Source: an uncultured Lachnospiraceae bacterium (GTDB taxonomy: Bacteria > Bacillota > Clostridia > Lachnospirales > Lachnospiraceae). Taken from it: a stretch of DNA of 53,124 nt. The position numbers and the translations under genes are program-made. Of this stretch, positions 9,704-41,279 are shown in pieces. The number at the start of each line of letters is the position of its first letter. Positions within the stretch are counted from its first letter, which is position 1. The DNA lies in contig CAMLYL010000014.1 of NCBI GenBank assembly GCA_946491665.1, forward strand, positions 1 through 53,124, in the 5' to 3' direction. The notes below the pieces were generated by a model. The model had not been told where the DNA came from. It worked only from the letters and a program-made list of their open reading frames with translations, and did no database searches.

Positions 9704-9718
9704 TGGATAATGCGGTCT

Positions 9719-9871: not shown

Positions 9872-9925
9872 AACTCTCATCGTTTGATTTTATGAAGGGT
9901 TAAAGGGTATAGATGTATATCAATT

Positions 9926-9984
9926 AAGGAGGAGCCCCTGGTAGGATACCTCCATGGGCAGATAGCAGCCCAGGAAAGGAGAAA
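9926..9984 (+). promoter_or_regulatory. Structured mRNA leader of hydrogenase operon 1
   Basis: The leader can fold as GGAGG (9928-9932) with CCTCC (9949-9953), plus TGGGC (9055-type hairpin at 9955-9959) with GCCCA (9968-9972). An alternative pairing CCTGG (9937-9941) with CCAGG (9970-9974) excludes both. The real RBS AAAGGAG (9975-9981) lies just beyond. A GGAGG with no start codon nearby and mutually exclusive stems suggest attenuation or translational control, but this is speculative. Confidence 0.3.
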
Positions 9985-9988
9985 AAGA

Positions 9989-23124: not shown

Positions 23125-23140
23125 AAAGAGGTGGATTATT

Positions 23141-25459: not shown

Positions 25460-25473
25460 GAGGTTGGTTTCAG

Positions 25474-26049: not shown

Positions 26050-26061
26050 GGAGGTATACAG

Positions 26062-26859
26062 ATGAATGTTCAGGCAATTGTAATTGCTACCGTGGTTGTA
26101 GCTGTTGTTGGTATTGTCATCGGTATTATCCTTGGCGTTGCCGGTGAAAAGTTTAAAGTAGAAGTGGATCCCCGTGAAGAGGCTGTTCTGGATGCTCTGC
26201 CCGGAAATAACTGCGGCGGATGCGGTTACGCCGGATGTTCCGGTCTGGCTGCAGCCATCGCCAAAGGTGAGGCAGAGGTCGGCGCCTGCCCGGTGGGAGG
26301 CGCTCCTGTAGCTGCCAAGATTGGAAGCATTATGGGAAAAGACGCAGGTGAAGCTGTCCATATGGTTGCATATGTAAAATGTGCCGGCACCTGCGACCAG
26401 GCAGGGGTTGATTACAACTATATTGGTGAGCAGTCCTGTCATATGGTAAAACAGATTTCCAACGGCGGACCGAAATCCTGTAATCATGGCTGTCTGGGCT
26501 TTGGCGAGTGCGTGGAAGCCTGCCCCTTTGATTCCATCCGCATTGTAAATGGTGTGGCAGTGGTAAATAAAGAGACATGTAAAGCCTGCAGCAAGTGTAT
26601 CAAGGTATGTCCTCAGAATTTAATTGAGCTGATTCCTTATGATGCAAAGGTTGCTGTACAGTGCAGTTCCAGAGATATGGGCAAGATCGTTATGAAGGCC
26701 TGCAAGGTGGGCTGTATCGGATGTAAGATGTGTGAGAAGGTCTGTGAGGCAGGCGCTGTCACTGTATCTGATAATATTGCGCATATTGATCAGGAGAAAT
26801 GTACCGGATGCGGCAAGTGCGCGGAGAAGTGTCCGAAGAAGATTATCCGTCCGGTATAA
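26062..26859 (+). CDS. rnfB: Rnf complex subunit B (ferredoxin-interacting Fe-S subunit)
   Basis: Electron entry subunit that accepts electrons from reduced ferredoxin. An N-terminal membrane helix (about 5-27) is followed by the 4Fe-4S domain NNCGGCGYAGCSGLA (Cys51, 54, 59 and the Cys in GACPVGG), then ferredoxin-type CxxCxxCxxxCP clusters through the C-terminus (CVEACP, CKACSKCIKVCP, CIGCKMCEKVC, CTGCGKCAEKCP). 265 aa, within the clostridial range. Last gene before a strong terminator. Confidence 0.96.
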   Translation: MNVQAIVIATVVVAVVGIVIGIILGVAGEKFKVEVDPREEAVLDALPGNNCGGCGYAGCSGLAAAIAKGEAEVGACPVGGAPVAAKIGSIMGKDAGEAVHMVAYVKCAGTCDQAGVDYNYIGEQSCHMVKQISNGGPKSCNHGCLGFGECVEACPFDSIRIVNGVAVVNKETCKACSKCIKVCPQNLIELIPYDAKVAVQCSSRDMGKIVMKACKVGCIGCKMCEKVCEAGAVTVSDNIAHIDQEKCTGCGKCAEKCPKKIIRPV

Positions 26860-26880
26860 ACAGAAACCGGACATGAAAAC

Positions 26881-26914
26881 GACGCAGACGAAAATTCGTC
26901 TGCGTCATTTTTTT
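26881..26914 (+). terminator. Strong intrinsic terminator of rnf operon
   Basis: GACGCAGACGAA (26881-26892) and TTCGTCTGCGTC (26895-26906): a perfect 12-bp stem followed by A and T7. It lies between convergent rnfB and apbE. Confidence 0.92.
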
Positions 26915-26947
26915 CAGCTGCCGGGAAAGAGATTCGGCTGCTGCCGG

Positions 26948-27976
26948 TCAGGAACCGGTTTCCTGAAAGGTGATATCGTCTCCGATTCCGGAGCTTGTAT
27001 GTATCTCGTAGTCACTGGTAATAAAAATCGCTTCTGTATTATCCAGGCTTTCGATCAGTTCCATTCCCTTTTCCAGTCCAAGGGAGAAACAGGTGGTGCT
27101 TAAGGCGTCTCCGTCTACGGACTCTTCAGAGAAAATAGTGACATCGAAAAGATTATTGTCTACCGGATAGCCTGTGGAGGTATCCATAATATGATGATAG
27201 ATTTTCCCGTCCAGTTCAAAATACCGTTCGTAGTTTCCGGAAGAAACGACAGACAGATCGGAGACACTGGCGGCGCCGATGGTACTGTTGGTTTCATCAA
27301 AGGGCTTCTGGATTCCGATGTTGAACGGAGTGCCGTCCGGCTTGTCTCCTATAACAAGTACATTTCCGCCCAGATTTATCATACCGGAAGTGACGCCCTG
27401 TTCTACAAGATATTCCTTCATCCGGTCAGCGATATATCCTTTGGCGATAGCTCCAAGATCCAGCTTTGTCCCTGCATGTGTGATCGCCACTTCATTTCCG
27501 CGGACAGAAACATACTCATATCTGATGGTATCGAGAGCAGCCCGGATATCTGCATCATCAGGAATGACTCCCGGATTATTGGTAATATCCCAGAGATCGG
27601 AGAGTGCGCCGACGGTGATGTCGAAAACGCCGTCAGTTAATTGACAGTAATATAAGCTCTTTTCCAGCAGGTCAATGGTTTCGTCGTCTACTGTGACGTA
27701 GGCGCCGTCCGCATTGTTGATCCGGGAGATATCGCTGTCATTTATGGTGCGGCTGAAAAGCTGTTCGTAATGCTCTGCCATATCGAAGCAGTCCTGAATC
27801 AGATCTTCATTATCTTTGCCGTATACCGTGATCGTGATGACCGTATCAAAGTAGGTTCCGGTGTCGCTGTATGAGGCGGAGGAGGCCGGTGAACTGCAGC
27901 CGGTCAGTGCAGCGCCCAGAAGAGAGATACACAGACCGGAAATGATAAGTGATTTTTTCAGGTGTCTTTTTTGCAT
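26948..27976 (-). CDS. apbE: FAD:protein FMN transferase lipoprotein
   Basis: Transfers FMN from FAD to threonines of target proteins outside the membrane. Signal with lipobox AALTGC (Cys27). Family landmarks: FDTVITITVYG, a YCQLTDGVFDITVGALSDLW region, LDLGAIAKGYIADRM (flavin binding), GMINLGGNVLVIG and SVVSSGNYERYF with HHIMDTSTGYPVDN (metal/active site). 342 aa from ATG 27976, which has AAAGGAT 6 nt upstream; an in-frame ATG at 28003 lacks an RBS. Convergent with rnf, whose RnfG and RnfD carry ApbE-type acceptor motifs, so Rnf maturation is the likely role. Confidence 0.95.
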   Translation of the reverse strand: MQKRHLKKSLIISGLCISLLGAALTGCSSPASSASYSDTGTYFDTVITITVYGKDNEDLIQDCFDMAEHYEQLFSRTINDSDISRINNADGAYVTVDDETIDLLEKSLYYCQLTDGVFDITVGALSDLWDITNNPGVIPDDADIRAALDTIRYEYVSVRGNEVAITHAGTKLDLGAIAKGYIADRMKEYLVEQGVTSGMINLGGNVLVIGDKPDGTPFNIGIQKPFDETNSTIGAASVSDLSVVSSGNYERYFELDGKIYHHIMDTSTGYPVDNNLFDVTIFSEESVDGDALSTTCFSLGLEKGMELIESLDNTEAIFITSDYEIHTSSGIGDDITFQETGS

Positions 27977-28020
27977 AATTGAATCCTTTTCCTGTATTCG
28001 CATAATTCTGCAATACTAAC

Positions 28021-29770: not shown

Positions 29771-30490
29771 TTATTTCACTGTCTCCAGATATTTTAAAAT
29801 GGCCGCGGGAGATGGATCCTCCGGACAGATAAAATAAAGGGGCTCATGCAGAGTATTAAAGTCATGAGCGTCAGAACTGTTCAGCATATTGCAGCTTCGC
29901 AGATATGGATACTGTTCCTGCAGAGACGGCCAGTCCGCAGGATCTTTTACTTCCACACAGGAAAACCGGCTGTCGGGAGGAATCAGTCCCAGGTTACCCA
30001 GCAGACTGGTGGAAGGTTTGTTGATATGGGCCGGAACCATAATGCCGTGATACTGGCTGACCAGTCCATACACCTGATCAAAGGAGATCGCGGTAGCGGA
30101 AATCAGAAGCTTCTCCTCTCTGCCGCAGATCCGGTCATGCCTGTCGTAAATAATCTGGTTGCCGAAAACGGAAGGCGTGTTTGGGATGGCCGGAAGCTGT
30201 TCGTATACGTAAGCATCGAATGCCATGGCGTCCTCCAGAGAAGAAAAGTAGCACAGGACATGAACCTCTTCCGCAGTGGTCAGTTCCATGCCGAACAGGA
30301 TATTCATTCCGTATGCGTCTGCCGCTGCGGCAAAGGCAGGACAGTTTTTGCAGCTGCTGTGATCTGTAAGGGCAATCAGATCCAGACCGATTACCTTTGC
30401 CATTCCCACAATGTTCGCCGGTGTCATATCGTCATCTCCGCAGGGGGAGAGACAGGAATGGATGTGCAGGTCATATGCTAATTCAGGCAT
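29771..30490 (-). CDS. PHP-domain metal-dependent hydrolase of hydrogenase locus
   Basis: Predicted phosphoesterase of the PHP superfamily, 239 aa. Metal-binding motifs: DLHIHSCLSPCGDDDMTP at the N-terminus, ALTDHSSCKNCPAF, HVLCYF, and the late VPAHINKP and NSSDAHD motifs. The start codon overlaps the stop of the upstream DRTGG gene by 8 bp, so translation is coupled. PHP proteins occur in polymerases and as nucleoside-phosphate or small-molecule phosphoesterases; substrate here is unknown. Its recurrent place with hydrogenase-linked signalling genes suggests turnover of a phosphorylated messenger or protein. Confidence 0.82.
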   Translation of the reverse strand: MPELAYDLHIHSCLSPCGDDDMTPANIVGMAKVIGLDLIALTDHSSCKNCPAFAAAADAYGMNILFGMELTTAEEVHVLCYFSSLEDAMAFDAYVYEQLPAIPNTPSVFGNQIIYDRHDRICGREEKLLISATAISFDQVYGLVSQYHGIMVPAHINKPSTSLLGNLGLIPPDSRFSCVEVKDPADWPSLQEQYPYLRSCNMLNSSDAHDFNTLHEPLYFICPEDPSPAAILKYLETVK

Positions 30491-30815
30491 GGATCTGTTT
30501 GTAAACCTCCAGAGCTGTATCGAAAATAGCTTTGTCTGTGCGGAGCAGAGTGATATCCTGGGAAACTGCTTTCATTTTCATGTTGTCGTCAACATTGGCG
30601 TTTCCGCAGAGGATAACACAGGCGGCATCCGCCAGGGATGCGACCGCAAGTGTGTTCATATTGGACATCACTGTACACCACGCGCATCCGGACGGTGCAT
30701 TGCCCATGGCTACGCTTAACAGATCACAGCAGTAGGGCTCGCTGATTTCAGCATTTCCGCTGCCCATATGGATCACTTCAAGATTCATGTTTTTTACAAT
30801 TTCATTTACTGTCAT
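30483..30815 (-). CDS. Stand-alone DRTGG-like domain protein (1)
   Basis: 110 aa protein resembling the DRTGG domain found in HPr kinase N-termini and phosphotransacetylases, without a kinase domain. It begins MTVNEIVKNMNLEVIHMG and contains a Cys-rich stretch YCCDLLSVAM...CAWCTVMSN (positions about 28-51) plus CVILCGN, similar in pattern to a sensor rather than an enzyme. RBS GAGG. Coupled to the PHP gene. A paralogue lies at 32664-32999. Likely a ligand-binding regulatory domain; function unproven. Confidence 0.7.
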   Translation of the reverse strand: MTVNEIVKNMNLEVIHMGSGNAEISEPYCCDLLSVAMGNAPSGCAWCTVMSNMNTLAVASLADAACVILCGNANVDDNMKMKAVSQDITLLRTDKAIFDTALEVYKQIHA

Positions 30816-30860
30816 AAATATTACCTCGCAGTTTTTCGTAATAAAAATAGCAGCATACCG

Positions 30861-32195
30861 TCAGGTATGTTGTGATTCGTTCTTATCAGATTCAGATTCC
30901 TTATCAGACTGTTCTTCCTCTGCCAGAAGATCTGCCGCTTTGACTCTGTCCAGAAAAATGCAGTCTCCGATTCTGGCCTTCCCGATGGATTTTACAATAT
31001 CGGAAGCGAGAGATTTGCAGGTGGGAGAGCCGCAGCATCCGCAGTCCAGACCAGGCAGATATTCCAGGATCCGGTCCATTTTCTTCATGTTTTCCATACT
31101 TTCAAAAATGTCTTCTCCCAGGCTGTAAACCGGTTCAAACTTAATAGACTCGGACCAGACAAAATCTTCCAGTGTGTGATCTGTGAGAAGAGAGCTGTCC
31201 GTTTTTAAAAACGGTTCCGTATGGTTCATACGGGTAGTCTTTGTTTTGGCAAGGTATGCGTTTTCTACCGTGAGAACGCCGCCCACGCAGCCGGCGCTGC
31301 AGGAATTCAGTTCCACAAACTGCAGACCGGGCTCGAATTTTTCGTCCTCAATATCCTCCAGAACCTGTATGACGTTTTCAATACCGTCTGCCGCCAGATA
31401 TTCGTTGGACTTGATGCCGAAAGCCTCTCCGCCGCTGACTGCCCAGCCTTTTCCCAGACGACCGGAGTGGGAAAGCTGCTGCACATTTTTTTCCGCATCC
31501 TTCATATGAGAGAGCAGCAGGGGATAGTAATCCTTGATGGCAATAACACGGTCCACATTGCTTTTGGCAAGTCCGAGAGGCGCGAACGTGAAGGCTACTT
31601 TAGAAGGACAGGGGGAGATAAATACAACCCCGATTTCCTCGCTTTTTAAGCCGGTCTTTTCGATGGCCCGCTCTCTGGCCAGCTGCGCCGCTACTTCCAT
31701 AGGCGGAAGAATCGGGAGCAGATGGGGAATCAGATTTGGGAAACGCACCCGGATCAGACGCTCAATGGTTGGGCAGGCAGTGCTGATCAGCGGCCACTGC
31801 TCCGGATGAGCCAGTATGTATTTGTGTGTCGCTTCGGACACCAGTTCAGCTGCGGCGCTGACCTCAAAAACATCGTCAAAGCCGGAGCGCAGAATTGCGG
31901 TCAGCACGATGTTGACATCGTCAAGATGATTAAACTGGCTGTACAGTGTAGGAGCGGGCAGAGCAATCAGGTATGGAAATTCTGCCCGTACTTTTTCAAA
32001 TTCATCCCGCCGGCACCGCTTGGCGTGGTGGGGACAGTGTTTATAGCATTCTCCGCAGTCGATGCAGTACTGGGAAATGATGAAAGCTTTTCCGTCCCTG
32101 ATCCGGATCGCCTGCGTAGGACACCGTTTCAGGCAGGTAAAACACCCGCTGCATCTGTCTGCAAACAGAAAAACAGAATGGTAAAATTTGTTCAT
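30861..32195 (-). CDS. Divergent H-cluster-domain Fe-S protein (sensory-type hydrogenase homologue)
   Basis: 444 aa protein with two N-terminal ferredoxin clusters (CSGCFTCLKRCP and CIDCGECYKHCP, about 15-54), a central [FeFe]-hydrogenase large-subunit-like domain and a C-terminal Fe-S domain (CGCCGSPTCKSLA with a late GDC, as in RnfB). The H-cluster motifs are altered: STACPTIERL in place of TSCCPxW (Cys141 only), ISPCPSK in place of MPCxxKK (Cys196, Lys199 kept) and ELNSCSAGCVGG in place of ExMxCxGGC (Cys299, Cys303). Four potential ligands of a [4Fe-4S]H site remain, so it may bind a cluster or H-cluster while being a poor catalyst. It shares layout with HydS (38392) but lacks the PAS domain. 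Probable sensor or electron carrier; third gene of the minus operon. Confidence 0.82.
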   Translation of the reverse strand: MNKFYHSVFLFADRCSGCFTCLKRCPTQAIRIRDGKAFIISQYCIDCGECYKHCPHHAKRCRRDEFEKVRAEFPYLIALPAPTLYSQFNHLDDVNIVLTAILRSGFDDVFEVSAAAELVSEATHKYILAHPEQWPLISTACPTIERLIRVRFPNLIPHLLPILPPMEVAAQLARERAIEKTGLKSEEIGVVFISPCPSKVAFTFAPLGLAKSNVDRVIAIKDYYPLLLSHMKDAEKNVQQLSHSGRLGKGWAVSGGEAFGIKSNEYLAADGIENVIQVLEDIEDEKFEPGLQFVELNSCSAGCVGGVLTVENAYLAKTKTTRMNHTEPFLKTDSSLLTDHTLEDFVWSESIKFEPVYSLGEDIFESMENMKKMDRILEYLPGLDCGCCGSPTCKSLASDIVKSIGKARIGDCIFLDRVKAADLLAEEEQSDKESESDKNESQHT

Positions 32196-32241
32196 AATAT
32201 AAAACCCTCGTAAAATATCCCTGTATTAAAACCTTATATCC

Positions 32242-32661
32242 TTAGAAATTGATGGCCATGGTGACGGTAGTTCCTACATTTAATTCTGTATCAATGTGGA
32301 TTTCATCGGAGGAACGCTTCATATTGGGAAGCCCCATTCCGGCTCCGAAGCCAAGCATATTGACTTCTTCATTGGCGGTGGAAAAGCCCTCCTGCATGGC
32401 CTGTTCGATGTCGGGGATGCCGGGACCCACATCCTTTAAAACCATCAGAATCCGGTCCGGAAAAATGTCGACATCGATGACGCCGCCGTTGGCATGAATC
32501 ACCATATTAATTTCACCCTCGTAAATCGCAATGGAACAGCGGCGGATAATATCCGGCGGAAGATTCATTTCTTTTAGTTTCTGTTTTAATTTACTGCTTG
32601 CTTCTCCGGCCCTGGAAAAATCATTGCCGTCTACTTCAAACTGATAATGTATGCTGTTCAT
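32242..32661 (-). CDS. RsbW/SpoIIAB-like GHKL serine kinase (anti-sigma type)
   Basis: 139 aa ATP-binding protein of the HATPase_c_2 type. N-box AIYEGEINMVIHA, G1 DVGPGIPD and G2 GFGAGMGLPNM are complete. No DNA-binding or sensor domain. Such proteins phosphorylate STAS-domain antagonists or sequester sigma factors; their phosphoproteins are reversed by SpoIIE/PP2C phosphatases, and one is encoded in the facing operon (40104). No STAS partner or sigma factor is visible in the window. It starts 2 bp after the DRTGG gene. Confidence 0.85.
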   Translation of the reverse strand: MNSIHYQFEVDGNDFSRAGEASSKLKQKLKEMNLPPDIIRRCSIAIYEGEINMVIHANGGVIDVDIFPDRILMVLKDVGPGIPDIEQAMQEGFSTANEEVNMLGFGAGMGLPNMKRSSDEIHIDTELNVGTTVTMAINF

Positions 32662-32663
32662 TT

Positions 32664-32999
32664 TCAGAATCCCCTTTCCTGGTAAAGTCTTCCGCAGGAC
32701 TCATACATGGGAAGCTCCGATCTTATGATAAAGATGCCGCATTCCTCTGCCATACGAAGCATTTCTTCTGTGGGAGTTTTCCCGCGGATAAATGCGATGC
32801 AGATGATATCAAGCATTTCCGCTGTACGGATCACCTGGGGATTGCAGAGCCCGGTAAGGAGAAGCGCATTCTTCTTGATAAAAGCAAGAACGTCACTCAT
32901 CATATCCGCGCCGCAGATGGTTTCAATTTCTTTGTTCAGATCCGCATTTTTGGATAACACCTCAGCTTCCAGTAGCTCAACTGCTTTTCCGATTGTCAT
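32664..32999 (-). CDS. Stand-alone DRTGG-like domain protein (2)
   Basis: 111 aa, first gene of the minus-strand operon. Start ATG at 32999 (GGAGG about 11 nt upstream) gives MTIGKAVELLEAEVLS; the frame extends further upstream into the promoter region, which I reject. It contains a DVLAFIKKNALLLTGL segment, IICIAFIRGKTPTEEMLRMAEE and a C-terminal IFIIRSELPMYESCGRLY, the DRTGG-like alpha/beta pattern also seen in the paralogue at 30483. No kinase motif. Likely small-molecule or phospho-ligand sensing; unproven. Confidence 0.72.
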   Translation of the reverse strand: MTIGKAVELLEAEVLSKNADLNKEIETICGADMMSDVLAFIKKNALLLTGLCNPQVIRTAEMLDIICIAFIRGKTPTEEMLRMAEECGIFIIRSELPMYESCGRLYQERGF

Positions 33000-33061
33000 A
33001 GTGTACAAAACCTCCAAGAATTCGCATGATTGTATTTTTTTAAATGCACAAACTAACAATA

Positions 33062-33090
33062 AGTATATCATATGTAATGTACATATTCAA
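33062..33090 (-). promoter_or_regulatory. Predicted sigma-A promoter of minus-strand hydrogenase-associated operon
   Basis: Minus strand: TTGAAT (33090-33085), a 17-bp spacer and TATACT (33067-33062), about 60 bp before the start at 32999. Confidence 0.6.
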
Positions 33091-33159
33091 CAAAAAATAA
33101 AGGAAAAATTATGTAAAAAATTATGATGTTTGCGAAATTAAACAAACCTAACGGAGTGT

Positions 33160-33177
33160 TTGGTAGATTTTTAACAA
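33160..33177. promoter_or_regulatory. Rex-like operator between divergent hydrogenase promoters
   Basis: TTGGTAG-ATTT-TTAACAA is an 18-bp imperfect dyad matching the clostridial Rex pattern TTGTTAA-N4-TTAACAA at 12 of 14 arm positions. It lies 20 bp upstream of the plus-strand -35 and 70 bp upstream of the minus-strand -35. Rex senses NADH/NAD+, which suits a NADH-linked hydrogenase. The match is by eye only. Confidence 0.45.
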
Positions 33178-33196
33178 AGAAGGGAGAAATTTTTTG

Positions 33197-33225
33197 TTGA
33201 AAATTATGAAAGATGATGATATCAT
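33197..33225 (+). promoter_or_regulatory. Predicted sigma-A promoter of the hydCBA operon
   Basis: TTGAAA (33197-33202), a 17-bp spacer and TATCAT (33220-33225). The -10 overlaps a perfect palindrome ATGATATCAT (33216-33225). Transcription from about 33232 would exclude the upstream TTG at 33194 and support the hydC start at 33275. Confidence 0.6.
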
Positions 33226-33274
33226 ATCATTTGTAGTGAGTAGGGAATACATACTCGGTATAGGAGGGATAATT

Positions 33275-33766
33275 TTGGATAACGCAAATCGTGTTCCGTT
33301 TCATGGAACAAAAGAACAGAAAGCGCAGCTTCTTGCAGTGATTGAAGAGCTTCGGGATACCCAGGGATGCCTGATGCCGATCATGCAGAAGGCGCAGGAC
33401 ATTTATGGATATCTTCCATATGAAGTCCAGAAGATGATTTCCGACGAGCTGGAGGTACCGTTGGAAAAGATCTATGGAGTGGCAACCTTTTACTCTATGT
33501 TTAATCTGTACCCCAAGGGAAAGTACAAAATTTCTGTATGTCTTGGAACAGCATGTTATGTTAAGGGTTCCGGCGATATTTACAGCAAGCTTATGGAGAA
33601 ACTGGGAATCCAGGGCGGACAGTGTACTATGGACGGCAAGTTTTCTCTGGATGCCTGCCGCTGTATCGGCGCCTGCGGGCTTGCTCCGGTTATGATGGTG
33701 AATGATGATGTATACGGACGTCTGACACCGGATGAGATTGACGGAATTCTGGCGAAATATGAATAA
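33275..33766 (+). CDS. hydC: NADH-dependent [FeFe]-hydrogenase subunit C (NuoE-like)
   Basis: Small [2Fe-2S] thioredoxin-fold subunit of the trimeric hydrogenase, 163 aa. TTG 33275 is chosen because GGAGGG lies 6 nt upstream and the predicted promoter lies inside the longer frame beginning at 33194. Cluster ligands: Cys89 and Cys94 (CLGTAC), Cys130 and Cys134 (CIGAC). The IYGVATFYSMFNL segment is the NuoE signature. It relays electrons among HydB clusters. Overlaps the next ATP-binding protein gene by one base. Confidence 0.93.
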   Translation: MDNANRVPFHGTKEQKAQLLAVIEELRDTQGCLMPIMQKAQDIYGYLPYEVQKMISDELEVPLEKIYGVATFYSMFNLYPKGKYKISVCLGTACYVKGSGDIYSKLMEKLGIQGGQCTMDGKFSLDACRCIGACGLAPVMMVNDDVYGRLTPDEIDGILAKYE

Positions 33767-34314
33767 TGCTGCCGGAGATTTCACTTAATATTCTGGATAT
33801 TGCTCAAAATTCAATTTCCGCGAAAGCCTCATTGATTCAGATAAAGGTGGAGACAGATTCTGACCGGAATCTGCTGAATGTTACGATTGCCGATAACGGA
33901 AAAGGAATGACGGAAGAAATGCTCACTGCTGTAACAGATCCGTTTTTCACGACCAGAACCACACGCAGTGTCGGTCTGGGCGTTCCTTTTTTCAAACAGG
34001 CTGCCGAATGCACAGGGGGAAATTTTTCTGTGTCTTCATTCCCGGGCAGCGGGACAACGGTGACTGCGCAGTTTCATACGGATCATATTGACTGCATGCC
34101 GCTGGGAGATGTGAATGCGACTGTTCATGCACTGGTGACGATGAATCCGTCAGTTGATTTTATATACGAGCGCCGGGCAGATGACAGATCTTTTTGCCTG
34201 GATACACGGCAGATGAGAGAGATTCTCGGTGATGTTCCTTTTGATCAGCCTGAGGTTGCGGCATTTATCAGGAGCTATCTGGAAGAAAATGAAACAGAAA
34301 TAATGAAACTATAG
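33766..34314 (+). CDS. GHKL ATP-binding protein of hydrogenase operon
   Basis: 182 aa protein with a histidine-kinase-type ATPase domain but no HisKA dimerisation domain, sensor or membrane segment: N-box NILDIAQNSISA, G1 DNGKGMTEE and G2 RSVGLGVPFFKQAAE. The C-terminal 70 residues carry no motif I know. It is inserted between hydC and the ferredoxin gene with a 1-bp overlap, an arrangement common beside clostridial trimeric hydrogenases. It may phosphorylate a partner or be a regulatory ATPase; a second GHKL protein (32242) faces it. Confidence 0.85.
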   Translation: MLPEISLNILDIAQNSISAKASLIQIKVETDSDRNLLNVTIADNGKGMTEEMLTAVTDPFFTTRTTRSVGLGVPFFKQAAECTGGNFSVSSFPGSGTTVTAQFHTDHIDCMPLGDVNATVHALVTMNPSVDFIYERRADDRSFCLDTRQMREILGDVPFDQPEVAAFIRSYLEENETEIMKL

Positions 34315-34344
34315 AAAAGTGATTGCTGAATTGGAGGAGCCGAA

Positions 34345-34716
34345 ATGAAATCACTGGAAGAATTAAAAGCGATTAGAGATAAGATGAAGGGGCAGATCGG
34401 CATGCGTTCCGAGGATGATGATAACATCCGTGTGGTTGTAGGAATGGCTACCTGCGGGATTGCCAGCGGTGCGCGTCCGGTTCTGAATCTTCTGGTAAAC
34501 GAGGTTCAGGCCAGAAATCTGGAAAACATTACTGTAACACAGACAGGATGCATCGGTTTGTGTCAGTATGAGCCCATTGTTGAGGTTTTTGAGCCGGGCA
34601 GAGAAAAGATTACATATGTAAAAGTAAATGAAGAGAAAGCTCTGGAGATTCTGGAACAGCATCTGATCAAGGGCAACGTGGTTGACAAATACCTGCTTCA
34701 TATGGAAGAGAAATAA
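34345..34716 (+). CDS. (2Fe-2S) ferredoxin-domain protein (thioredoxin-like)
   Basis: 123 aa, thioredoxin-like [2Fe-2S] ferredoxin fold like the HydB N-terminus. Visible Cys: Cys37 (MATCGIASGARP), Cys68 and Cys72 (GCIGLC). The fourth ligand expected from the CxxxxC pattern seen in HydB (Cys9 and Cys14 there) is missing. The cluster may therefore be three-Cys ligated, use another residue or be absent. Sits between the ATPase and hydB, RBS GGAGG; probably an accessory electron carrier of the complex. Confidence 0.85.
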   Translation: MKSLEELKAIRDKMKGQIGMRSEDDDNIRVVVGMATCGIASGARPVLNLLVNEVQARNLENITVTQTGCIGLCQYEPIVEVFEPGREKITYVKVNEEKALEILEQHLIKGNVVDKYLLHMEEK

Positions 34717-34732
34717 GGAGGGAGTGACTGAT

Positions 34733-36526
34733 ATGTATCGAGCACATGTATTAGTCTGCGGTGGTACTGGCTGCACATCCTCTGGAAGCGCCCAGATCAT
34801 TCAGACACTGGAAGATGAGATCAAAAAGAATGGTCTTCAGAATGAGATTTCTGTAGTAAAAACGGGATGCCACGGACTTTGCGCCGAGGGTCCGGTGATG
34901 ATAGTATATCCGGAAGCTGTATTTTATTCTCAGGTAAAGCCGGAGGATGTTCCGGAGATTGTTTCCGAGCACCTCTTAAAAGGGCGTGTTGTGGAGCGTC
35001 TTGTATATCATGAGGCAAAAAAAGATGATGGAACAGTTTCATCATTGAACGAGACTACATTTTATAAAAAGCAGCACAGAATTGCACTCAGAAACTGTGG
35101 CGTTATCAATCCGGAAAGTATTGATGAGTATATCGGTACCGGCGGATATGAGGCTCTCGGCAAGGTACTTACTGAGATGTCTCCGGATGAGGTTATTCAG
35201 ACTATTCTGGACAGCGGACTGCGGGGGCGCGGAGGCGCTGGATTCCCTACCGGACTTAAATGGAGATTTGCTTCCGGAAACCGCGGAAATGTTCAGAAAT
35301 ATGTATGCTGTAATGCGGATGAGGGTGATCCGGGAGCATTCATGGATCGTTCCGTTCTTGAGGGAGACCCTCATGTAGTCCTTGAGGCTATGGCTATTGC
35401 AGGTTACGCCATCGGCGCAAATCAGGGATATATTTATGTCCGTGCGGAGTATCCGATTGCTGTGGAACGTCTCCATATTGCCATTGATCAGGCGAGAGAG
35501 TACGGACTGCTTGGAAAAGATATTTTCGGATCCGGATTTGATTTTGATATCGATCTCCGCCTTGGAGCGGGCGCATTCGTCTGCGGCGAGGAGACTGCCC
35601 TGATGACATCCATCGAGGGCAACAGAGGCGAGCCCCGTCCGAGACCGCCGTTCCCGGCAGTAAAAGGTCTGTTTGCATGTCCGACCATTCTGAACAATGT
35701 TGAGACCTGGGCAAACATTCCTCAGATTATTCTGAACGGTCCGGAATGGTTTGCATCCATGGGTACGGAAAAGTCAAAGGGAACCAAGGTGTTCGCGCTC
35801 GGAGGAAAGATCAACAACACCGGTCTTGTGGAGATTCCCATGGGAACCACGCTCCGTACTGTTATTGAAGATATCGGCGGCGGCATCCCGAACGGCAAGA
35901 AGTTTAAGGCAGCTCAGACCGGAGGTCCTTCCGGCGGATGTATTCCGGCGGAGCACATAGATATTCCGATTGATTATGATAATCTGATCAGCATCGGTTC
36001 CATGATGGGTTCCGGCGGTCTGATTGTTATGGATGAGGACACCTGTATGGTGGATATCGCCAAGTTCTTCCTGCAGTTTACCGTGGATGAGTCCTGCGGA
36101 AAATGTACCCCCTGCCGTGTTGGTACGAAGCGTCTTCTGGAGATTCTGGAGAAGATTACAGAGGGCAGAGGAACACTGGAAGATCTTGATAAGCTGGAAG
36201 AGCTGTGCTACTACATTAAGGAAAATGCTCAGTGCGGTCTGGGACAGACAGCGCCCAACCCGGTATTATCTACTCTGCGTTATTTCCGTGATGAATATGA
36301 GGAGCATGTTGTAAACAAGAGATGTCCGGCCGGCGTATGTAAGAAGCTGATTACCTTCAAGATCGATCCGATCAAATGTAAGGGATGTACTCTTTGTGCA
36401 CGGAACTGTCCTGCGGATGCCATTGAGGGCGCCATCAAGACAGCTCATTATATTGACAATGACAAGTGCGTGAAGTGCGGAACCTGTATCGAGAAGTGCC
36501 GGTTTGGCGCGATCTACAAAGAGTAA
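34733..36526 (+). CDS. hydB: NADH-dependent [FeFe]-hydrogenase subunit B (NuoF-like)
   Basis: Flavin subunit that exchanges electrons with NADH and, in this enzyme class, is the proposed bifurcation site. 597 aa from ATG 34733 (AAGGAGGGAG upstream). An N-terminal [2Fe-2S] domain (Cys9, 14, 46, 50), then the NuoF core with GLRGRGGAGFPTGLKW (FMN/NADH), CNADEGDPGAFMDR, the NADH_4Fe-4S motif CGKCTPCRVG with a later Cys in QCGLGQTAPN, and two C-terminal [4Fe-4S] clusters CKGCTLCARNCP and CVKCGTCIEKC. Follows the ferredoxin gene by 16 bp and precedes hydA by 14 bp. Confidence 0.96.
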   Translation: MYRAHVLVCGGTGCTSSGSAQIIQTLEDEIKKNGLQNEISVVKTGCHGLCAEGPVMIVYPEAVFYSQVKPEDVPEIVSEHLLKGRVVERLVYHEAKKDDGTVSSLNETTFYKKQHRIALRNCGVINPESIDEYIGTGGYEALGKVLTEMSPDEVIQTILDSGLRGRGGAGFPTGLKWRFASGNRGNVQKYVCCNADEGDPGAFMDRSVLEGDPHVVLEAMAIAGYAIGANQGYIYVRAEYPIAVERLHIAIDQAREYGLLGKDIFGSGFDFDIDLRLGAGAFVCGEETALMTSIEGNRGEPRPRPPFPAVKGLFACPTILNNVETWANIPQIILNGPEWFASMGTEKSKGTKVFALGGKINNTGLVEIPMGTTLRTVIEDIGGGIPNGKKFKAAQTGGPSGGCIPAEHIDIPIDYDNLISIGSMMGSGGLIVMDEDTCMVDIAKFFLQFTVDESCGKCTPCRVGTKRLLEILEKITEGRGTLEDLDKLEELCYYIKENAQCGLGQTAPNPVLSTLRYFRDEYEEHVVNKRCPAGVCKKLITFKIDPIKCKGCTLCARNCPADAIEGAIKTAHYIDNDKCVKCGTCIEKCRFGAIYKE

Positions 36527-36540
36527 CGGAGGTATCAATC

Positions 36541-38292
36541 ATGGAATATGTAAATATTAAAATTAATGGTGTCGAGATCTCTGCTCCCGCAGGATCCACC
36601 ATTCTGGAAGCGGCACGTCTGGCGAATATTGAGATACCGACCTTATGCTACCTGAAAGAGATCAATGAGATCGGCGCCTGCAGAATGTGCGTAGTAGAAG
36701 TAAAGGGAGCAAAATCCCTTGTGACAGCCTGTGTATACCCGATTAATGAGGGAATGGAAGTATATACCAATACACCGAAGGTTGTTTCTTCCAGAAAGAA
36801 GACATTGCAGCTTCTTCTTTCAAATCATGACAGAAAATGTCTCTCCTGCGTGAGAAGCGGCAACTGTGAGCTTCAGAAACTCTGCCGTGACTATAAGGTG
36901 GACGACGAGGGATTATATGATGGTGAGCGGATTCAGTATGAACTGGATACATCTGCTGCCCATATGGTCCGCGATAATAACAAGTGTATTCTCTGCAGAC
37001 GCTGCAGCGCTGTCTGTGAGAAGGTTCAGGGAATCGGCGTAATCGGACCGAATGAGCGTGGATTCAGGACATTTATCGGATCTGCATTTGAGATGGGGCT
37101 GGGCGAGACCAGCTGTGTTTCCTGTGGACAGTGTATTGCTGCATGTCCGACCGGCGCTATTTATGAGAAGGATAATACACAGGAAGTATTCGCGGCGATT
37201 GCGGATCCGGATAAGTATGTGGTTGTCCAGACTGCCCCGGCAGTCCGCGCCGGACTCGGCGAGTTTTTCGGCTATCCCATCGGAACCGATGTGGAGGGCA
37301 AGCTGGCGGCTGCGCTCCGGAGACTTGGCTTTGATAAGGTATTTGATACCAATTTTAGTGCAGACCTTACCATCATGGAAGAGGCGAATGAATTCCTTGA
37401 CAGAGTTCAGAATGGCGGAGTACTGCCGATGATTACATCCTGTTCTCCCGGATGGATCAAGTACTGTGAGCATTACTTCCCGGATATGACAGAGAATCTG
37501 TCCAGCTGCAAGTCCCCGCAGCAGATGTTCGGTGCAATTGCGAAGTCCTACTATGCGGAGAAAATGGGAATTGATAAGGAAAAGATGGTTGTTGTCAGCG
37601 TAATGCCCTGTACCGCAAAGAAGTTTGAGATCGGCAGAGATGATGAAGACGGCGCAGGTGTGCCTGATGTGGATTTTGCCATCACTACAAGAGAGCTTGG
37701 AAGAATGATCGAGCGTGCCGGAATCAAGTTTGAGACTCTTCCGGATGAGGAGTTTGATCTGCCGTTAGGCCTTGGAACCGGCGCAGCCGTAATTTTCGGC
37801 GCTACCGGAGGCGTAATGGAGGCAGCCCTTCGTACCGCAGTGGAGAAGCTGACCGGAGAGGAGCTGGCAAGTCTTGATTTCACAGATGTGAGAGGAACGA
37901 AAGGCATCAAGGAAGCCACCTACAATGTGGCAGGCATGGACGTGAAGGTGGCGGTTGCTTCCGGACTGGGAAATGCGAGAGAGCTTCTGAAGAAAGTTCA
38001 GTCCGGCGAGGCAGACTACCACTTTATCGAGATCATGGGATGCCCGGGCGGATGCGTCAACGGAGGCGGACAGCCTCAGCAGCCGGGATATGTACGCAAT
38101 ACTGTGGATATCCGGGCGAAGCGCGCGGAGGTTCTTTACAATATTGACAAGAACAATCCGATCCGTAAGTCTCATGAGAATCCGGCGATCATTGAGCTTT
38201 ATGATACCTATCTGGGTGAACCGGGAAGCCACAGAGCTCATGAACTGCTTCATACAACATATGTAAAACGAGTTGTAAATAAGGATCTGTAA
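36541..38292 (+). CDS. hydA: NADH-dependent [FeFe]-hydrogenase catalytic subunit A
   Basis: Catalytic subunit of the trimeric, probably electron-bifurcating hydrogenase (H2 with NAD+ and ferredoxin). 583 aa from ATG 36541. N-terminal [2Fe-2S] (Cys36, 47, 50, 64), His-Cys3 cluster (His96, Cys100, 103, 109), two [4Fe-4S] clusters (CILCRRCSAVC, CVSCGQCIAAC), H-cluster motifs TSCSPGW (299-305), MPCTAKKFE and EIMGCPGGCVNGGGQP. The second Cys of TSCC is Ser here, unlike the paralogue at 11815. Terminates at a strong hairpin after 38292. Confidence 0.96.
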   Translation: MEYVNIKINGVEISAPAGSTILEAARLANIEIPTLCYLKEINEIGACRMCVVEVKGAKSLVTACVYPINEGMEVYTNTPKVVSSRKKTLQLLLSNHDRKCLSCVRSGNCELQKLCRDYKVDDEGLYDGERIQYELDTSAAHMVRDNNKCILCRRCSAVCEKVQGIGVIGPNERGFRTFIGSAFEMGLGETSCVSCGQCIAACPTGAIYEKDNTQEVFAAIADPDKYVVVQTAPAVRAGLGEFFGYPIGTDVEGKLAAALRRLGFDKVFDTNFSADLTIMEEANEFLDRVQNGGVLPMITSCSPGWIKYCEHYFPDMTENLSSCKSPQQMFGAIAKSYYAEKMGIDKEKMVVVSVMPCTAKKFEIGRDDEDGAGVPDVDFAITTRELGRMIERAGIKFETLPDEEFDLPLGLGTGAAVIFGATGGVMEAALRTAVEKLTGEELASLDFTDVRGTKGIKEATYNVAGMDVKVAVASGLGNARELLKKVQSGEADYHFIEIMGCPGGCVNGGGQPQQPGYVRNTVDIRAKRAEVLYNIDKNNPIRKSHENPAIIELYDTYLGEPGSHRAHELLHTTYVKRVVNKDL

Positions 38293-38301
38293 AATAATTT
38301 G

Positions 38302-38329
38302 AAAAAGACCGCATACAGCGGTCTTTTTC
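38302..38329 (+). terminator. Intrinsic terminator after hydCBA
   Basis: AAAAAGACCGC (38302-38312) pairs with GCGGTCTTTTT (38318-38328), loop of 5 nt; the T-run is within the right arm. It separates hydA from hydS. Confidence 0.85.
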
Positions 38330-38331
38330 TG

Positions 38332-38360
38332 TTGAATAACCGGGCAAAAGATTTTAAAAT
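38332..38360 (+). promoter_or_regulatory. Predicted sigma-A promoter of hydS-spoIIE-like genes
   Basis: TTGAAT (38332-38337), a 17-bp spacer and TAAAAT (38355-38360), immediately after the hydA terminator and 31 bp before the hydS start. Confidence 0.6.
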
Positions 38361-38391
38361 AGATGTATAAATGTTTGGGAGGATACAGTCT

Positions 38392-40104
38392 ATGAATGTA
38401 ATTAATTTTAGAGATGCCAACTGTGCGCACTGCTATAAATGTCTGCGGAACTGTGATGTGAAAGCAATCCGGATCAAAAACGGACAGGCGCAGATTGTGC
38501 AGGATATGTGTATTTACTGCGGACACTGTATGGAGATCTGTCCCCAGAAGGCCAAGACCTTTGACAGTGATCTGGAATATGTAAAGCATATGCTGAAACA
38601 CAGGGAAAAACTGGTGGTTTCTCTGGATCCGTCCTACAGCGGTCTTCTGAATCTGAATCAGCCGAAAAAAATCGTGGATGCATTGTATAAACTGGGGTTC
38701 GCGGATGTCCGGGAAACGGCGGAAGGCGCGGCGTTGATTACGGAAGAGTATGCCCGTCTGATCGAAGAGGGAAAGATGGAGAATATTATTACTACCAGCT
38801 GCCCGGCAATTATTTATCTGGTGGAAAAGCATTATCCCATGTTGATTCCCTATCTGGCTCCGGTGATTTCACCTATGATTGCTCATGGGCGGATGATTAA
38901 GGCAAAGATGGGGAAACATACGAAAGTTGTTTTTATCGGTCCCTGCGTGGCGAAAAAAATGGAAGCGGAAGCGGATCGCAGCACTCTGGGGGCAGTAGAT
39001 GCAGTAATTGAGTTTAATGAGCTGGAGCAGTGGCTGGCAGAGGAAGACATTGATGTCAATCGCTGTGAGGAGCGCGAATTCAGCAATCCGGATCCCCAGG
39101 TAAATCAGCTTTATCCGGTTCCAACCGGCATTATGAGAGCAGTCAGCGCTTACTGCAATACCGGGAAATACAAGATGATGACAGTGAGTTCTGTCAAAAG
39201 TTCACGAGAACTGCTTCACAGTATGAAGCGCGGTTATCTGAAAAATTGTTTTGTAGAACTGAACCTCTGCTCCGGAGGCTGCGTAAACGGTCCCGGTGTC
39301 AATAAGCGAAGAGGGTTCCGGTTCAAGGCTGCCATGAATATTGAGGATAATGTCTGCATGGGAGCCGTGCATATGGATAATCCTTTATCACCAAAGCAGA
39401 TGAGCCGCAGCTACACGCCGCAGCAGGTGCTTGATAAAATGCCGAGCGAGGCGGAGATTAAGGAAATTTTAAAAACAATCGGCAAGAGCAACAGCGATAC
39501 GGAGTTCAACTGCGGCGCCTGCGGTTATATGAGCTGCAGGGAGAAGGCGATTGCTATTTATCAGGGAAAGGCTGAGGCTGCTATGTGTCTGATCCGTTCC
39601 TATGAGAATGCCCGGTCTCAGGCTAATGTGGTAATGGAAAATATTCCGAGTATTGTCATGATTGTAGACAAGGATTTTCGGATTCGGGAGTTTAATAAGA
39701 AGGCTGAACAGGTTTTCGGAACAACCAGGAGTGAGGCATTAAAAAGCTATCTGTTTGATTATATAGATACAACAGAGTTTGAGGAGGTTTATCTGACCCA
39801 TGAGCCGAAGATTCATATGAAGAAGAAATGGGACTATTATCAGATGACTGTTCTGGAGACCATTGTCTATGTGGAGAATGCGGACCGGGTTCTGGCTGTG
39901 ATTGAGGATGTAACCTCGGAGGAAAGCCGTGCGGAGAAGCTGATGTTAAAGAAACTGAATTCCATTAAAATGGCTCAGGATGTGATCGATAAGCAGATGA
40001 AGACAGCGCAGGAGATTGCGGGGCTTCTCGGCGAGACAACGGCTGAAACAAAGGCTACGCTGAATGAGCTTCGGGATTATATGCTGCAGGAAGAGGACGC
40101 ATAA
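38392..40104 (+). CDS. hydS: PAS-containing sensory [FeFe]-hydrogenase (HydS-like)
   Basis: Probable H2/redox sensor, cytoplasmic, 570 aa from ATG 38392 (GGGAGG 8 nt upstream). Two ferredoxin clusters (CAHCYKCLRNC 11-21, CIYCGHCMEIC 40-50), an H-cluster domain with TTSCPAI (Cys137), GPCVAKK (Cys185) and ELNLCSGGCVNGPG (Cys293, Cys297), an RnfB-like Fe-S motif CGACGYMSC (374-382), a PAS domain (about 410-520: IPSIVMIVDKDFRIREFN onward) and a C-terminal helix. Relative to HydA, one of the two L1 cysteines, the L2 Met and the L3 Met are replaced, as expected for a sensor rather than a turnover enzyme. The downstream phosphatase gene overlaps by one base. Ruminococcus albus HydS is the known analogue. 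Confidence 0.88.
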   Translation: MNVINFRDANCAHCYKCLRNCDVKAIRIKNGQAQIVQDMCIYCGHCMEICPQKAKTFDSDLEYVKHMLKHREKLVVSLDPSYSGLLNLNQPKKIVDALYKLGFADVRETAEGAALITEEYARLIEEGKMENIITTSCPAIIYLVEKHYPMLIPYLAPVISPMIAHGRMIKAKMGKHTKVVFIGPCVAKKMEAEADRSTLGAVDAVIEFNELEQWLAEEDIDVNRCEEREFSNPDPQVNQLYPVPTGIMRAVSAYCNTGKYKMMTVSSVKSSRELLHSMKRGYLKNCFVELNLCSGGCVNGPGVNKRRGFRFKAAMNIEDNVCMGAVHMDNPLSPKQMSRSYTPQQVLDKMPSEAEIKEILKTIGKSNSDTEFNCGACGYMSCREKAIAIYQGKAEAAMCLIRSYENARSQANVVMENIPSIVMIVDKDFRIREFNKKAEQVFGTTRSEALKSYLFDYIDTTEFEEVYLTHEPKIHMKKKWDYYQMTVLETIVYVENADRVLAVIEDVTSEESRAEKLMLKKLNSIKMAQDVIDKQMKTAQEIAGLLGETTAETKATLNELRDYMLQEEDA

Positions 40105-41279
40105 TGAAAAATATTACAATCGACATGGCATATAAAAGCCTGAACCACATCGGCGAGGAGCTGTGCGGCGACAAGGTGGAAATTGTAAATAACGACGACA
40201 GCAGGATTCTGATTCTGGCGGACGGCATGGGAAGCGGGATCCGTGCCAATATTCTGGCAACTCTTACCTCAAAGATTATCGCAACCCTGCTGAAGCATAA
40301 CACTTCGATTGACGAGGTTGTTTCAACGATAGCGAAAACACTTCCCGTCTCCTCCGTGAATGGCGCTGCTTATGCCACATTCAGCGTGATCCAGGCTTTT
40401 TATGACGGAAGGATTTATGTGGTAGAATATGATAATCCGGAATGTATTCTGATCCGGGACGGGAAAGTGCAGAAGCTGCCTTTCCGGATCCGCGAGATTG
40501 AGGGAAAGAAGATCAGGGAGTGTGAGTTTATTTCACAGCTTGGAGATTCTCTGGCAATTGTGAGTGACGGCTGTCTGTACTGCGGTACCGGGGAAATTAT
40601 GAACTACAGCTGGGACTGGAAAGCGTTGTCCAACTGTGCTCAGATTGCCGCTCAGAAAAGTCAGAATGCCCAGCAGATGGCGGATCACATCAATGCCAAC
40701 TGCGCGGAGCTTTATGGGAATATCCCCACGGATGACACCACAGTGGCGGTAGCCCGCGTGATGGAGGAAAAGATAATCAGTATTCTTACCGGACCGCCGG
40801 CGGATAAGGCAGACGATTATAAGATGGTGGAAGCTTTTATGGAGCATGACGGTATTAAGATTGTCTGCGGTGGAAGCACCAGTCACATGGTAGCCCGCGT
40901 GCTGAATGAACGTCTGGTTCCTGTGGACGACCGGCTGGATCCGGAGATTCCTCCTACTTCAAAGATCAAGGGGATTGATCTGGTGACGGAAGGAGTACTG
41001 ACTCTCCACAAAGCAGTGGAGTTATTGGAACGATATGCGGATAATGATGTTTCCGAAGATTTCTTTATGGAACTGAGCCGGGATAACGGAGCCACAAGAA
41101 TTGTAATCTATTTTATGGAAGATTGTTCCACAGTGCATCTGTATATCGGAAAAGCCGTGAATATGGATTATACAGATAAGACGCTTCCTTTTGAGATTTC
41201 CGCCCGGCAGAGCCTGACTCAGAGACTGATTGCCGTATTGGAAAAAATGAATAAAAAAGTGTTTGTCCACTATTACTAA
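40104..41279 (+). CDS. SpoIIE/PP2C-type serine phosphatase
   Basis: 391 aa. An N-terminal PP2C/SpoIIE domain (residues about 1-215) with metal-binding motifs LILADGMGSG and PTDDTTVAVARV, plus SDGCLYCG. A further region of about 170 aa (beginning ISILTGPPADKADDYK, with CGGSTSHMVARVLN) follows; I do not recognise a named domain but it looks like a ligand- or partner-binding module. Overlaps hydS by 1 bp, so sensor and phosphatase are probably made in equal amounts. The likely substrate is a phosphoprotein made by the RsbW-like kinase (32242) or the other GHKL protein (33766). Confidence 0.88.
   Translation: MKNITIDMAYKSLNHIGEELCGDKVEIVNNDDSRILILADGMGSGIRANILATLTSKIIATLLKHNTSIDEVVSTIAKTLPVSSVNGAAYATFSVIQAFYDGRIYVVEYDNPECILIRDGKVQKLPFRIREIEGKKIRECEFISQLGDSLAIVSDGCLYCGTGEIMNYSWDWKALSNCAQIAAQKSQNAQQMADHINANCAELYGNIPTDDTTVAVARVMEEKIISILTGPPADKADDYKMVEAFMEHDGIKIVCGGSTSHMVARVLNERLVPVDDRLDPEIPPTSKIKGIDLVTEGVLTLHKAVELLERYADNDVSEDFFMELSRDNGATRIVIYFMEDCSTVHLYIGKAVNMDYTDKTLPFEISARQSLTQRLIAVLEKMNKKVFVHYY

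Follow-up and report, generated by a model that had tools for sequence, protein, structure and literature searches.

The question raised by positions 29771-41279 of contig CAMLYL010000014.1 is whether the regulatory genes that surround a trimeric [FeFe]-hydrogenase there form a single signalling system. The window (the whole stretch analysed, positions 1-53,124 of the contig, 53,124 nt) comes from a 3.35-Mb genome assembled into 171 contigs and 84% complete. The locus is divergent: its minus arm encodes DRTGG1, an RsbW-like kinase, the hydrogenase-like protein HydX, DRTGG2 and a PHP-domain protein, and its plus arm runs from hydC through to a PP2C phosphatase. An initial annotation of the window read these genes as one partner-switching loop; all the genes that it named were recovered in the orientation described, as open reading frames (ORFs) and by a Pfam scan covering ten proteins of the locus. 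Our analysis shows that the locus holds two signalling systems, not one. The reading that we prefer, with a probability of about 0.5, is that two independent signalling modules, referred to here as W and S, flank one trimeric hydrogenase, and that module W is a multi-protein redox switch. The features of the locus are as follows.

29771-30490, minus strand: PHP-domain phosphoesterase, module W (PF02811, E 1e-11)
30483-30815, minus strand: DRTGG2, module W (DRTGG match below the Pfam cut-off, E 0.0016)
30861-32195, minus strand: HydX, [FeFe]-hydrogenase-like putative sensor without PAS, M2e/C1-like, module W (PF02906, PF04060 and 4Fe-4S)
32242-32661, minus strand: RsbW/SpoIIAB-like GHKL kinase, module W (HATPase_c; best PDB match SpoIIAB)
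32664-33071, minus strand: DRTGG1, module W (ORF; likely start at 32999, giving 111 residues, from the start of homologues; DRTGG match above the Pfam cut-off)
33194-33766, plus strand: hydC, 2Fe-2S thioredoxin-like subunit (PF01257, E 4e-52; the true start may lie up to about 80 bases downstream)
33766-34314, plus strand: HydE-like GHKL ATPase, module W (HATPase_c, E 9e-15)
34345-34716, plus strand: HydD-like 2Fe-2S thioredoxin-like protein, module W (weak PF01257; absent from the list of the initial annotation)
about 34733-36526, plus strand: hydB, NADH/FMN subunit (open frame; an orthologue in genome G285 is 84% identical)
about 36541-38292, plus strand: hydA, catalytic [FeFe] subunit (713 bits to A. 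woodii HydA1, 7q4v, residues 3-576)
about 38392-40104, plus strand: HydS, PAS-bearing sensory [FeFe]-hydrogenase, M2f/C3-like, module S (PF02906, E 5e-55; FeS; PAS)
40104-41279, plus strand: SpoIIE/PP2C phosphatase with an extra C-terminal domain, HfsC-like, module S (Pfam SpoIIE)

The genes are tightly spaced, with 1-base overlaps between hydC and the ATPase gene and between HydS and PP2C, and a 2-base gap between DRTGG1 and the kinase. With hydC, hydB and hydA all present (ORFs, Pfam, PDB match), the hydrogenase set is complete and, from its sequence, of the trimeric bifurcating type. Among the best 25 NCBIfam rows for each of the nine accessory proteins, only a generic sensory-box (PAS) match in HydS exceeded its cut-off; curated annotation therefore names the accessory proteins in general terms at best.

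Separation of the kinase from the phosphatase

Co-occurrence was counted in a phylum sample of 299 genomes at thresholds of E <=1e-20 for PP2C, <=1e-15 for the RsbW-like kinase and <=1e-60 for HydX, which gave 94, 127 and 120 carriers, respectively; all except two of the kinase matches listed fell below 1e-37. HydX and the kinase were found together in 119 genomes, HydX only in 1, the kinase only in 8 and neither in 171 (phi 0.94), bearing out the earlier proposal that a sensor and the RsbW-like kinase belong together. For PP2C and the kinase the corresponding counts were 69 with both, 25 with PP2C only, 58 with the kinase only and 147 with neither (phi 0.42). HydB was tried as a control and set aside: at E 1e-100 it matches 260 of the 299 genomes, probably including other NADH-binding subunits, and a profile this broad precluded conditioning phi on the trimeric hydrogenase.

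Gene neighbourhoods point the same way. The loci fetched from the other 126 kinase-bearing genomes numbered 127, one of them only a contig-end fragment, leaving 126 with a kinase ORF. HydX is present in 117 of these, at least one DRTGG gene in 122, two DRTGG genes in 103, PHP and the HydE-like ATPase in 108 each, HydB in 91, Rex in 29 and RnfC in 25; the kinase gene adjoins HydX in 117 and a DRTGG gene in 110. PP2C occurs in none of the 126 fetched loci, 112 of which span at least 9 kb. The complete order DRTGG1-kinase-HydX-DRTGG2-PHP recurs in 92 of the 127 phylum-sample loci (some of the misses being contig ends) and in 73 of 80 HydX loci from named genomes, these 80 being the closest among the matches listed and not a fair sample. 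This recurrence exceeds chance. hydC, HydE and HydD are contiguous in 67 and 59 of the same two sets. Since the HydE-like ATPase gene directly follows PHP in several loci with no hydrogenase genes in view (L228 and L284, for example), we assign it to module W; at the present locus it occupies the place of hydE in the hydC-E-D-B-A order of A. woodii, and its 74 C-terminal residues have no Pfam match. The HydD-like protein matches an NCBIfam 2Fe-2S ferredoxin model at E 2e-10, below cut-off.

The PP2C gene has a partner of its own, for it lies directly after HydS in 58 of 61 distinct loci, or 62 of 65 when duplicates are counted. The three exceptions are a broken gene (L019), overlapping frames (L328) and a locus with no HydS seen (L325). 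Thirteen loci were fetched from the 25 genomes with PP2C and no kinase, and 11 of them (L324, L326-L335) hold HydS, PP2C and the hydB of another trimeric set.

In the initial annotation HydS would drive PP2C to oppose the RsbW-like kinase, and the phospho-protein shared by the two would be a DRTGG protein or HydX. The proposal has some appeal at this locus, where a 9-kb stretch contains the kinase, the phosphatase and the sensor, a cluster found again in several members of the genus (L038, L041, L042 and L047, among others), and it draws on the statistical association of PP2C with the kinase and on the occurrence of PP2C at 10 kb or less from HydX in 8 of the 80 closest named loci. It is difficult to reconcile with the absence of PP2C from all 126 other kinase loci fetched and with the 25 and 58 genomes that hold one gene without the other. 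Moreover, only 14 of the 69 genomes with both genes have them on one contig, and there they lie 7 kb apart in the present window, about 43-50 kb apart in three (G121, G266, G314) and no less than 370 kb apart in ten; the remaining 55 carry the two genes on separate contigs. Even within the genus, the kinase is missing from G005 and G010 (91-92% complete), which carry PP2C, and PP2C is missing from G002 (91%) and G004 (79%), which carry the kinase, incompleteness possibly contributing in each case. Nor did any of the loci annotated contain a fusion of PP2C to a module W protein. As co-occurrence, neighbourhood and contig distance all part the kinase from PP2C, we reject the single-system reading, a loop in which PP2C undoes the work of the kinase being improbable. 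The expectation attached to that loop, that the accessory genes travel together, holds within module W and fails for PP2C, so that two sets result.

Some copies of module W lie beside Rnf, Rex or Nfn genes and not beside HydABC (L198, L200, L207, L299, L310, L312, L314). Two loci (L231, L236) show a kinase-HydX pair with no DRTGG or PHP gene in view; the pair adjoins two-component-type regulators and a large frame resembling a sensor, as named from a reading of the sequence. In the window, a six-frame Rnf-like operon that includes RnfC, plus an ApbE-like gene, lies at 21796-28003, 2-11 kb from module W (also named from sequence reading), and RnfC is likewise within the fetched W locus of the genus members G004 and G012. 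The window holds a second hydC-hydB-hydA set at 9116-13548 (195, 610 and 588 residues), and a divergent trimeric hydrogenase directly adjoins the locus in the relatives L043, L047 and L086. HydA (36541-38292) reads TSCSPGW where CpI has TSCCPGW, the same Ser being found in A. woodii HydA1 (7q4v).

The kinase and its candidate partners

The RsbW-like protein has SpoIIAB as its best PDB match (E 8e-9, nearly full length) and matches the NCBIfam spIIAB model at E 1e-12, below cut-off. Residues E48 and N52 of the N-box and D77, G79 and G81 of the first glycine box are invariant in 205 of 205 distinct sequences; conservation counts here refer to distinct sequences after removal of duplicates between collections (92 PP2C rows, for example, reduce to 66), except where rows are stated. 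E48 and N52 align with the catalytic N-box Glu and Asn of SpoIIAB. By these features the protein is predicted to be a GHKL serine kinase with the catalytic residues of SpoIIAB. Its identification as a histidine kinase was considered and ruled out, the closest solved relatives being SpoIIAB.

Natural fusions suggest which proteins touch which. In the fetched loci the kinase is fused to a pair of CBS domains in 6 loci (5 genomes), to DRTGG1 in 9 and to HydX in 1; elsewhere in module W, HydX is fused to DRTGG2 in 2 loci, PHP to HydE in 6 and HydE to HydD in 1. Taking fusion as a sign of interaction, as is customary, these join into two chains, DRTGG1-kinase-HydX-DRTGG2 and PHP-HydE-HydD. A 268-residue kinase frame in L103 and stop-to-stop frames of 567 and 629 residues in G273 and G028 were rejected as fusions. 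CBS is a nucleotide-binding module, and HydX is missing from 4 of the 6 CBS-kinase loci versus 4 of 119 others (Fisher p 1e-4, one truncated locus dropped). Because the CBS-fused kinases mostly lack HydX, it is as if CBS had been swapped in for HydX as the input to the kinase.

DRTGG1 is our best candidate for the partner or switch of this kinase, since it is encoded just before it, in the position that RsbV would occupy, and is fused to it in nine loci. Its AlphaFold model (mean pLDDT 92.9) has the DRTGG fold. The motif Asp56-x-x-Ser59-Asp60 is preserved almost throughout the family (D56 in 183, S59 in 185 and D60 in 183 of 185 distinct sequences), and in the model the motif Ser, S59, is residue 35 and lies within the opening turn of helix 34-40, which follows strand 27-30. 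STAS antagonists are phosphorylated on a Ser at the start of a helix that follows a strand; the likeness to S59 of DRTGG1 is an analogy only, and no STAS protein was among the 50 matches listed in a fold search with DRTGG1. In DRTGG2, D31 and S34 are found in 190 of 192 distinct sequences (the other two having gaps) and T48 in 191 of 192. DRTGG1 differs from the CBS/DRTGG region of a clostridial pyrophosphatase (3l2b/3l31) and from the N-domain of HPr kinase in being a stand-alone protein with an invariant Asp-x-x-Ser of its own. Of the two phospho-switch candidates put forward initially, the DRTGG proteins thus gain from the nine fusions to the kinase and from this motif, whereas HydX is unlikely, its 16 invariant cluster cysteines being suited to a sensor.

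The PHP protein keeps residues of the metal-ligand type in 184 aligned sequences, among which Cys17, near the HxH motif, is invariant (100% by weight). Many PHP enzymes have an acidic ligand where Cys17 stands in the module W protein.

The initial annotation had also remarked that no STAS antagonist is at hand, and indeed no STAS match was found on the contig of the window. The source genome has two, of which the first belongs to a separate spoIIA operon and the second to a 728-residue frame. Of 20 kinase-bearing genomes assembled in 1-3 contigs, ten have exactly one STAS match, and in each of these (G061, G092, G096, G125, G135, G160, G190, G273, G313, G337) it is the SpoIIAA of a spoIIAA-spoIIAB-sigF operon. 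With SpoIIAA as the sole STAS match, the kinase in these ten genomes either borrows SpoIIAA or acts on a target that is not a STAS protein. When set against the RsbW/RsbV/RsbU and SpoIIAB/SpoIIAA/SpoIIE systems, the module thus has a GHKL kinase with SpoIIAB-type catalytic residues and a small partner gene just upstream; it differs in that the partner is a DRTGG protein and not a STAS antagonist of its own, in that PP2C lies outside the unit, and in that no sigma gene was noticed beside the kinase in the loci viewed, no systematic or dedicated sigma-factor search having been made. Kinship with SpoIIAB would also suit a simple anti-sigma factor sequestering an unlinked sigma factor until HydX or DRTGG1 binds. 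We regard this as very improbable, given the lack of a sigma gene among those neighbours and the separate location, in the source genome, of the SpoIIAA-SpoIIAB-SigF set.

Two putative sensors and their known relatives

All 191 distinct sequences of HydX keep its 16 cluster cysteines (eight N-terminal, four of the H-cluster and four C-terminal), and the H-cluster ligand cysteines and C385, C388, C393 and C412 are each present in 194 of 194 rows; the sequences were picked by profile, so that some conservation is expected, although loss of one ligand would not have excluded a sequence. At the proton-relay site (C299 in CpI numbering) the 194 rows have Ala in 145, Ser in 41, Thr in 5 and other residues in 3; at the M353 site, 190 have Ser or Thr. 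These changes accord with what has been reported, in the passages drawn on, for TamHydS and partly for TmHydS. No PAS match was found by Pfam in the HydX of the window. HydX thus shows the marks of group C1/M2e, with H-cluster cysteines, no C299, no PAS and a C-terminal four-Cys motif; it appears to be a relative of the low-activity sensory [FeFe]-hydrogenases, which suggests H2 or redox sensing.

HydS and PP2C correspond to group C3, with an H-domain and PAS, the H-cluster cysteines kept and PP2C adjacent. The four H-cluster cysteines of HydS are found in 85 of 85 rows, which include partial copies of one gene. Loss of the proton-relay C299 was reported for TmHydS in the passages seen; the site is Ser in the window and Cys in 26 of the same 85 rows, so its loss is not general in the HydS family. 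The acidic metal-site residues of PP2C (D23, D40, D155, D210, D211) occur in 66 of 66 distinct sequences. Its 167 C-terminal residues (40776-41276) are conserved, with fair to good predicted confidence and no Pfam match, the VIA list being largely confined to residues 2-222. In four order-level relatives (L048, L049, L051, L053) a HydS-like protein of 475-486 residues stands beside the HydS-PP2C pair and is probably a group-B hydrogenase like HfsD. On sequence grounds the HydS-PP2C pair can be equated with the known putative phosphatase-linked sensor pair HfsB-HfsC of HydDB class C3.

Both sensor classes are already in print. Statements on prior work draw on passages of PMC11837493, PMC11376134, PMC10102598, PMC8163306, PMC6776011, PMC8924675, PMC10055695, PMC9431212, PMC3315566, PMC10472528, PMC4236516, PMC5707799, PMC6163223, PMC5037454 and PMC3561251, and those on the Thermotoga, A. 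woodii and C. thermocellum loci rest on these papers, apart from the comparison with 7q4v. In these passages, HydDB places kinase-linked [FeFe] sensors in C1 and phosphatase-linked ones in C3, and the HfsB-HfsC or HydS pair was put forward as an H2 sensor coupled to a phosphatase. As in HfsB-HfsC of Thermoanaerobacterium and in the HydS loci of R. albus and T. maritima, HydS (H-domain, FeS, PAS) is here followed directly by a Ser/Thr phosphatase; the difference is that the pair adjoins a hydrogenase that also carries module W. HydX in turn resembles the C1 or group D M2e proteins (TamHydS; Cthe_0335, Cphy_3798, Csac_1857) in lacking PAS, in its C-terminal four-Cys motif and in lying near a kinase-like ATPase and a trimeric hydrogenase, but the kinase of module W is SpoIIAB/RsbW-like rather than a full histidine kinase, and the unit also includes DRTGG, PHP and HydE genes.

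A 2012 survey of several species, as far as its passages show, placed M2e sensors in the vicinity of A1 trimeric hydrogenases and M2f sensors in that of A8 ones, often with a histidine/serine kinase between; for Athe, Csac, TTE, Cphy, Cthe and Teth39 its table gives locus numbers that set M2e at a distance of exactly five from the gene that opens the trimeric set. As this spacing fits HydX-DRTGG2-PHP-HydC-HydE-HydD or its divergent form, module W is probably present in these six species, all workable organisms, to judge from the published locus numbers alone. In A. woodii the gene order hydC-E-D-B-A is the same, with a histidine-kinase-like ATPase between hydC and hydD; HydE was named there, its resemblance to histidine-kinase ATPase domains was noted and a role in 'assembly or signalling' suggested, and the passages draw no link to DRTGG-RsbW-HydX-DRTGG-PHP genes. 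Vallitalea is described as having a C1 sensor and a kinase beside Rnf, and an enlarged beta-subunit with a GltD domain. HydB proteins of about 1010-1020 residues (usually 597) in the module W loci L252, L275, L276, L278, L285, L288, L294 and L296 are perhaps of this kind. The open-licence literature yielded no account of the whole of module W, its DRTGG and PHP members, its SpoIIAB-type kinase, the fusions or the separation from HydS-PP2C. The initial description of the mechanism as undescribed was accordingly too strong, in view of the C1 and C3 classes, the kinase of the 2012 survey and A. woodii HydE; it stands for module W as a whole, which was not found in print.

Possible output of module W and its meaning

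The intergenic region between the two arms contains one further feature.

33160-33177, plus strand: weak Rex-operator-like site (2 mismatches)

It was found by scanning with the Rex operator consensus TTGTTAANNNNTTAACAA. The site alone is not significant for a 53-kb window, in which 3 matches at up to 3 mismatches were found and 2.2 expected, 36 of 100 shuffles reaching 3. Regions upstream of W operons were then compared with dinucleotide shuffles (20 runs; 205 regions from 227 loci, after removal of loci that lacked a kinase ORF or lay too close to a contig end). Of 174 non-redundant promoters, 40 carried a Rex-like site at up to 3 mismatches versus a shuffle mean of 13.0 (highest run 20), and 11 versus 1.2 at up to 2 mismatches. 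Because of this enrichment, control of the locus by Rex, and thus by NADH/NAD+, is likely.

The same setting bears on whether module W acts on genes at all. Its ATPases, DRTGG and PHP proteins could instead phosphorylate, adenylate-sense or assemble HydABC or Rnf, with HydX as a gauge or assembly scaffold. In keeping with such action on the enzyme, no DNA-binding neighbour besides Rex was noticed in the 14 loci viewed for other frames, the HydE-like ATPase and HydD lie inside the structural operon (HydE being the protein credited with 'assembly or signalling'), the CBS domains fused to the kinase suggest nucleotide sensing, and RnfC is present in 25 of the 126 loci. The proximity of Rex and the Rex-like sites suggest, on the other hand, a gene-regulation setting, and HydABC accompanied by HydS-PP2C only is found in genomes without the kinase (11 of the 13 such loci fetched); as HydABC sets occur in kinase-less genomes, module W is not needed for their assembly in general. 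We hold action on the enzyme to be a tentative alternative.

Under the redox-switch reading, HydX would bind H2 or take up electrons at its H-cluster and Fe-S chain and pass its state to the SpoIIAB-type kinase, which would work in a complex with DRTGG1 and DRTGG2 in place of a STAS antagonist. Phosphorylation by the kinase, or its ATP/ADP state, would set the output of the complex on HydABC (elsewhere on Rnf or Nfn) at a Rex-linked locus, and PHP is a candidate for the reverse step. Module S would form a second H2 sensor, acting through dephosphorylation of some target.

Several points weigh against parts of this picture. The gene content, the two-module split, the fusions, the conserved active sites and the presence of only SpoIIAA as a STAS protein in ten genomes are direct observations; sensing by HydX, phosphotransfer, the DRTGG proteins as switch and the output on a target are proposals from sequence. 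Both phi values (0.94 and 0.42) are uncorrected for phylogeny or for the presence of HydABC. Crosstalk between modules W and S may occur, given the phi of 0.42 and the eight among the 80 named loci, variously arranged and including two from the genus, in which PP2C lies no more than 10 kb from HydX. HydX is not the sole input, since 8 of the 127 kinase genomes lack a HydX match (two of these being contig-end fragments), and the other ten of the 20 near-complete genomes hold 2-6 STAS matches, so that a STAS partner is possible there. AF1212, the nearest solved DRTGG protein and the sole comparison possible at the aligned place, is without the Asp-x-x-Ser. DRTGG1 may equally be a ligand-binding regulator whose Ser binds the ligand, and a domain fused to the kinase may be an input or a scaffold rather than a substrate. 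The excess of Rex-like sites is modest in the phylum sample, with 20 of 102 promoters versus 5.9 (highest shuffle 14) at up to 3 mismatches and 3 versus 0.65 at up to 2, and a Rex gene is present in only 29 of 126 kinase loci.

These reservations leave the kinase module itself real, tightly built and widespread in the phylum (127 of 299 genomes). A 2024 review, in the passages drawn on, states the signal output of sensory [FeFe]-hydrogenases to be unknown; other passages tie regulation linked to these sensors to ethanol yield in thermophiles and propose that it governs rumen H2 metabolism. It is conceivable, if rather doubtful as a whole, that module W represents a new signalling class in which a sensory [FeFe]-hydrogenase is wired to a SpoIIAB-type kinase, with a DRTGG switch, a PHP reset and CBS input swaps, and which would balance bifurcating hydrogenase, Rnf and NADH across clostridia. 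Should this prove true, the kinase of module W would be, to our knowledge, the first RsbW-type kinase with a non-STAS partner. The gene order, the candidate switch proteins and the contacts that the fusions suggest turn the question of signal output into a short list of pairwise tests.

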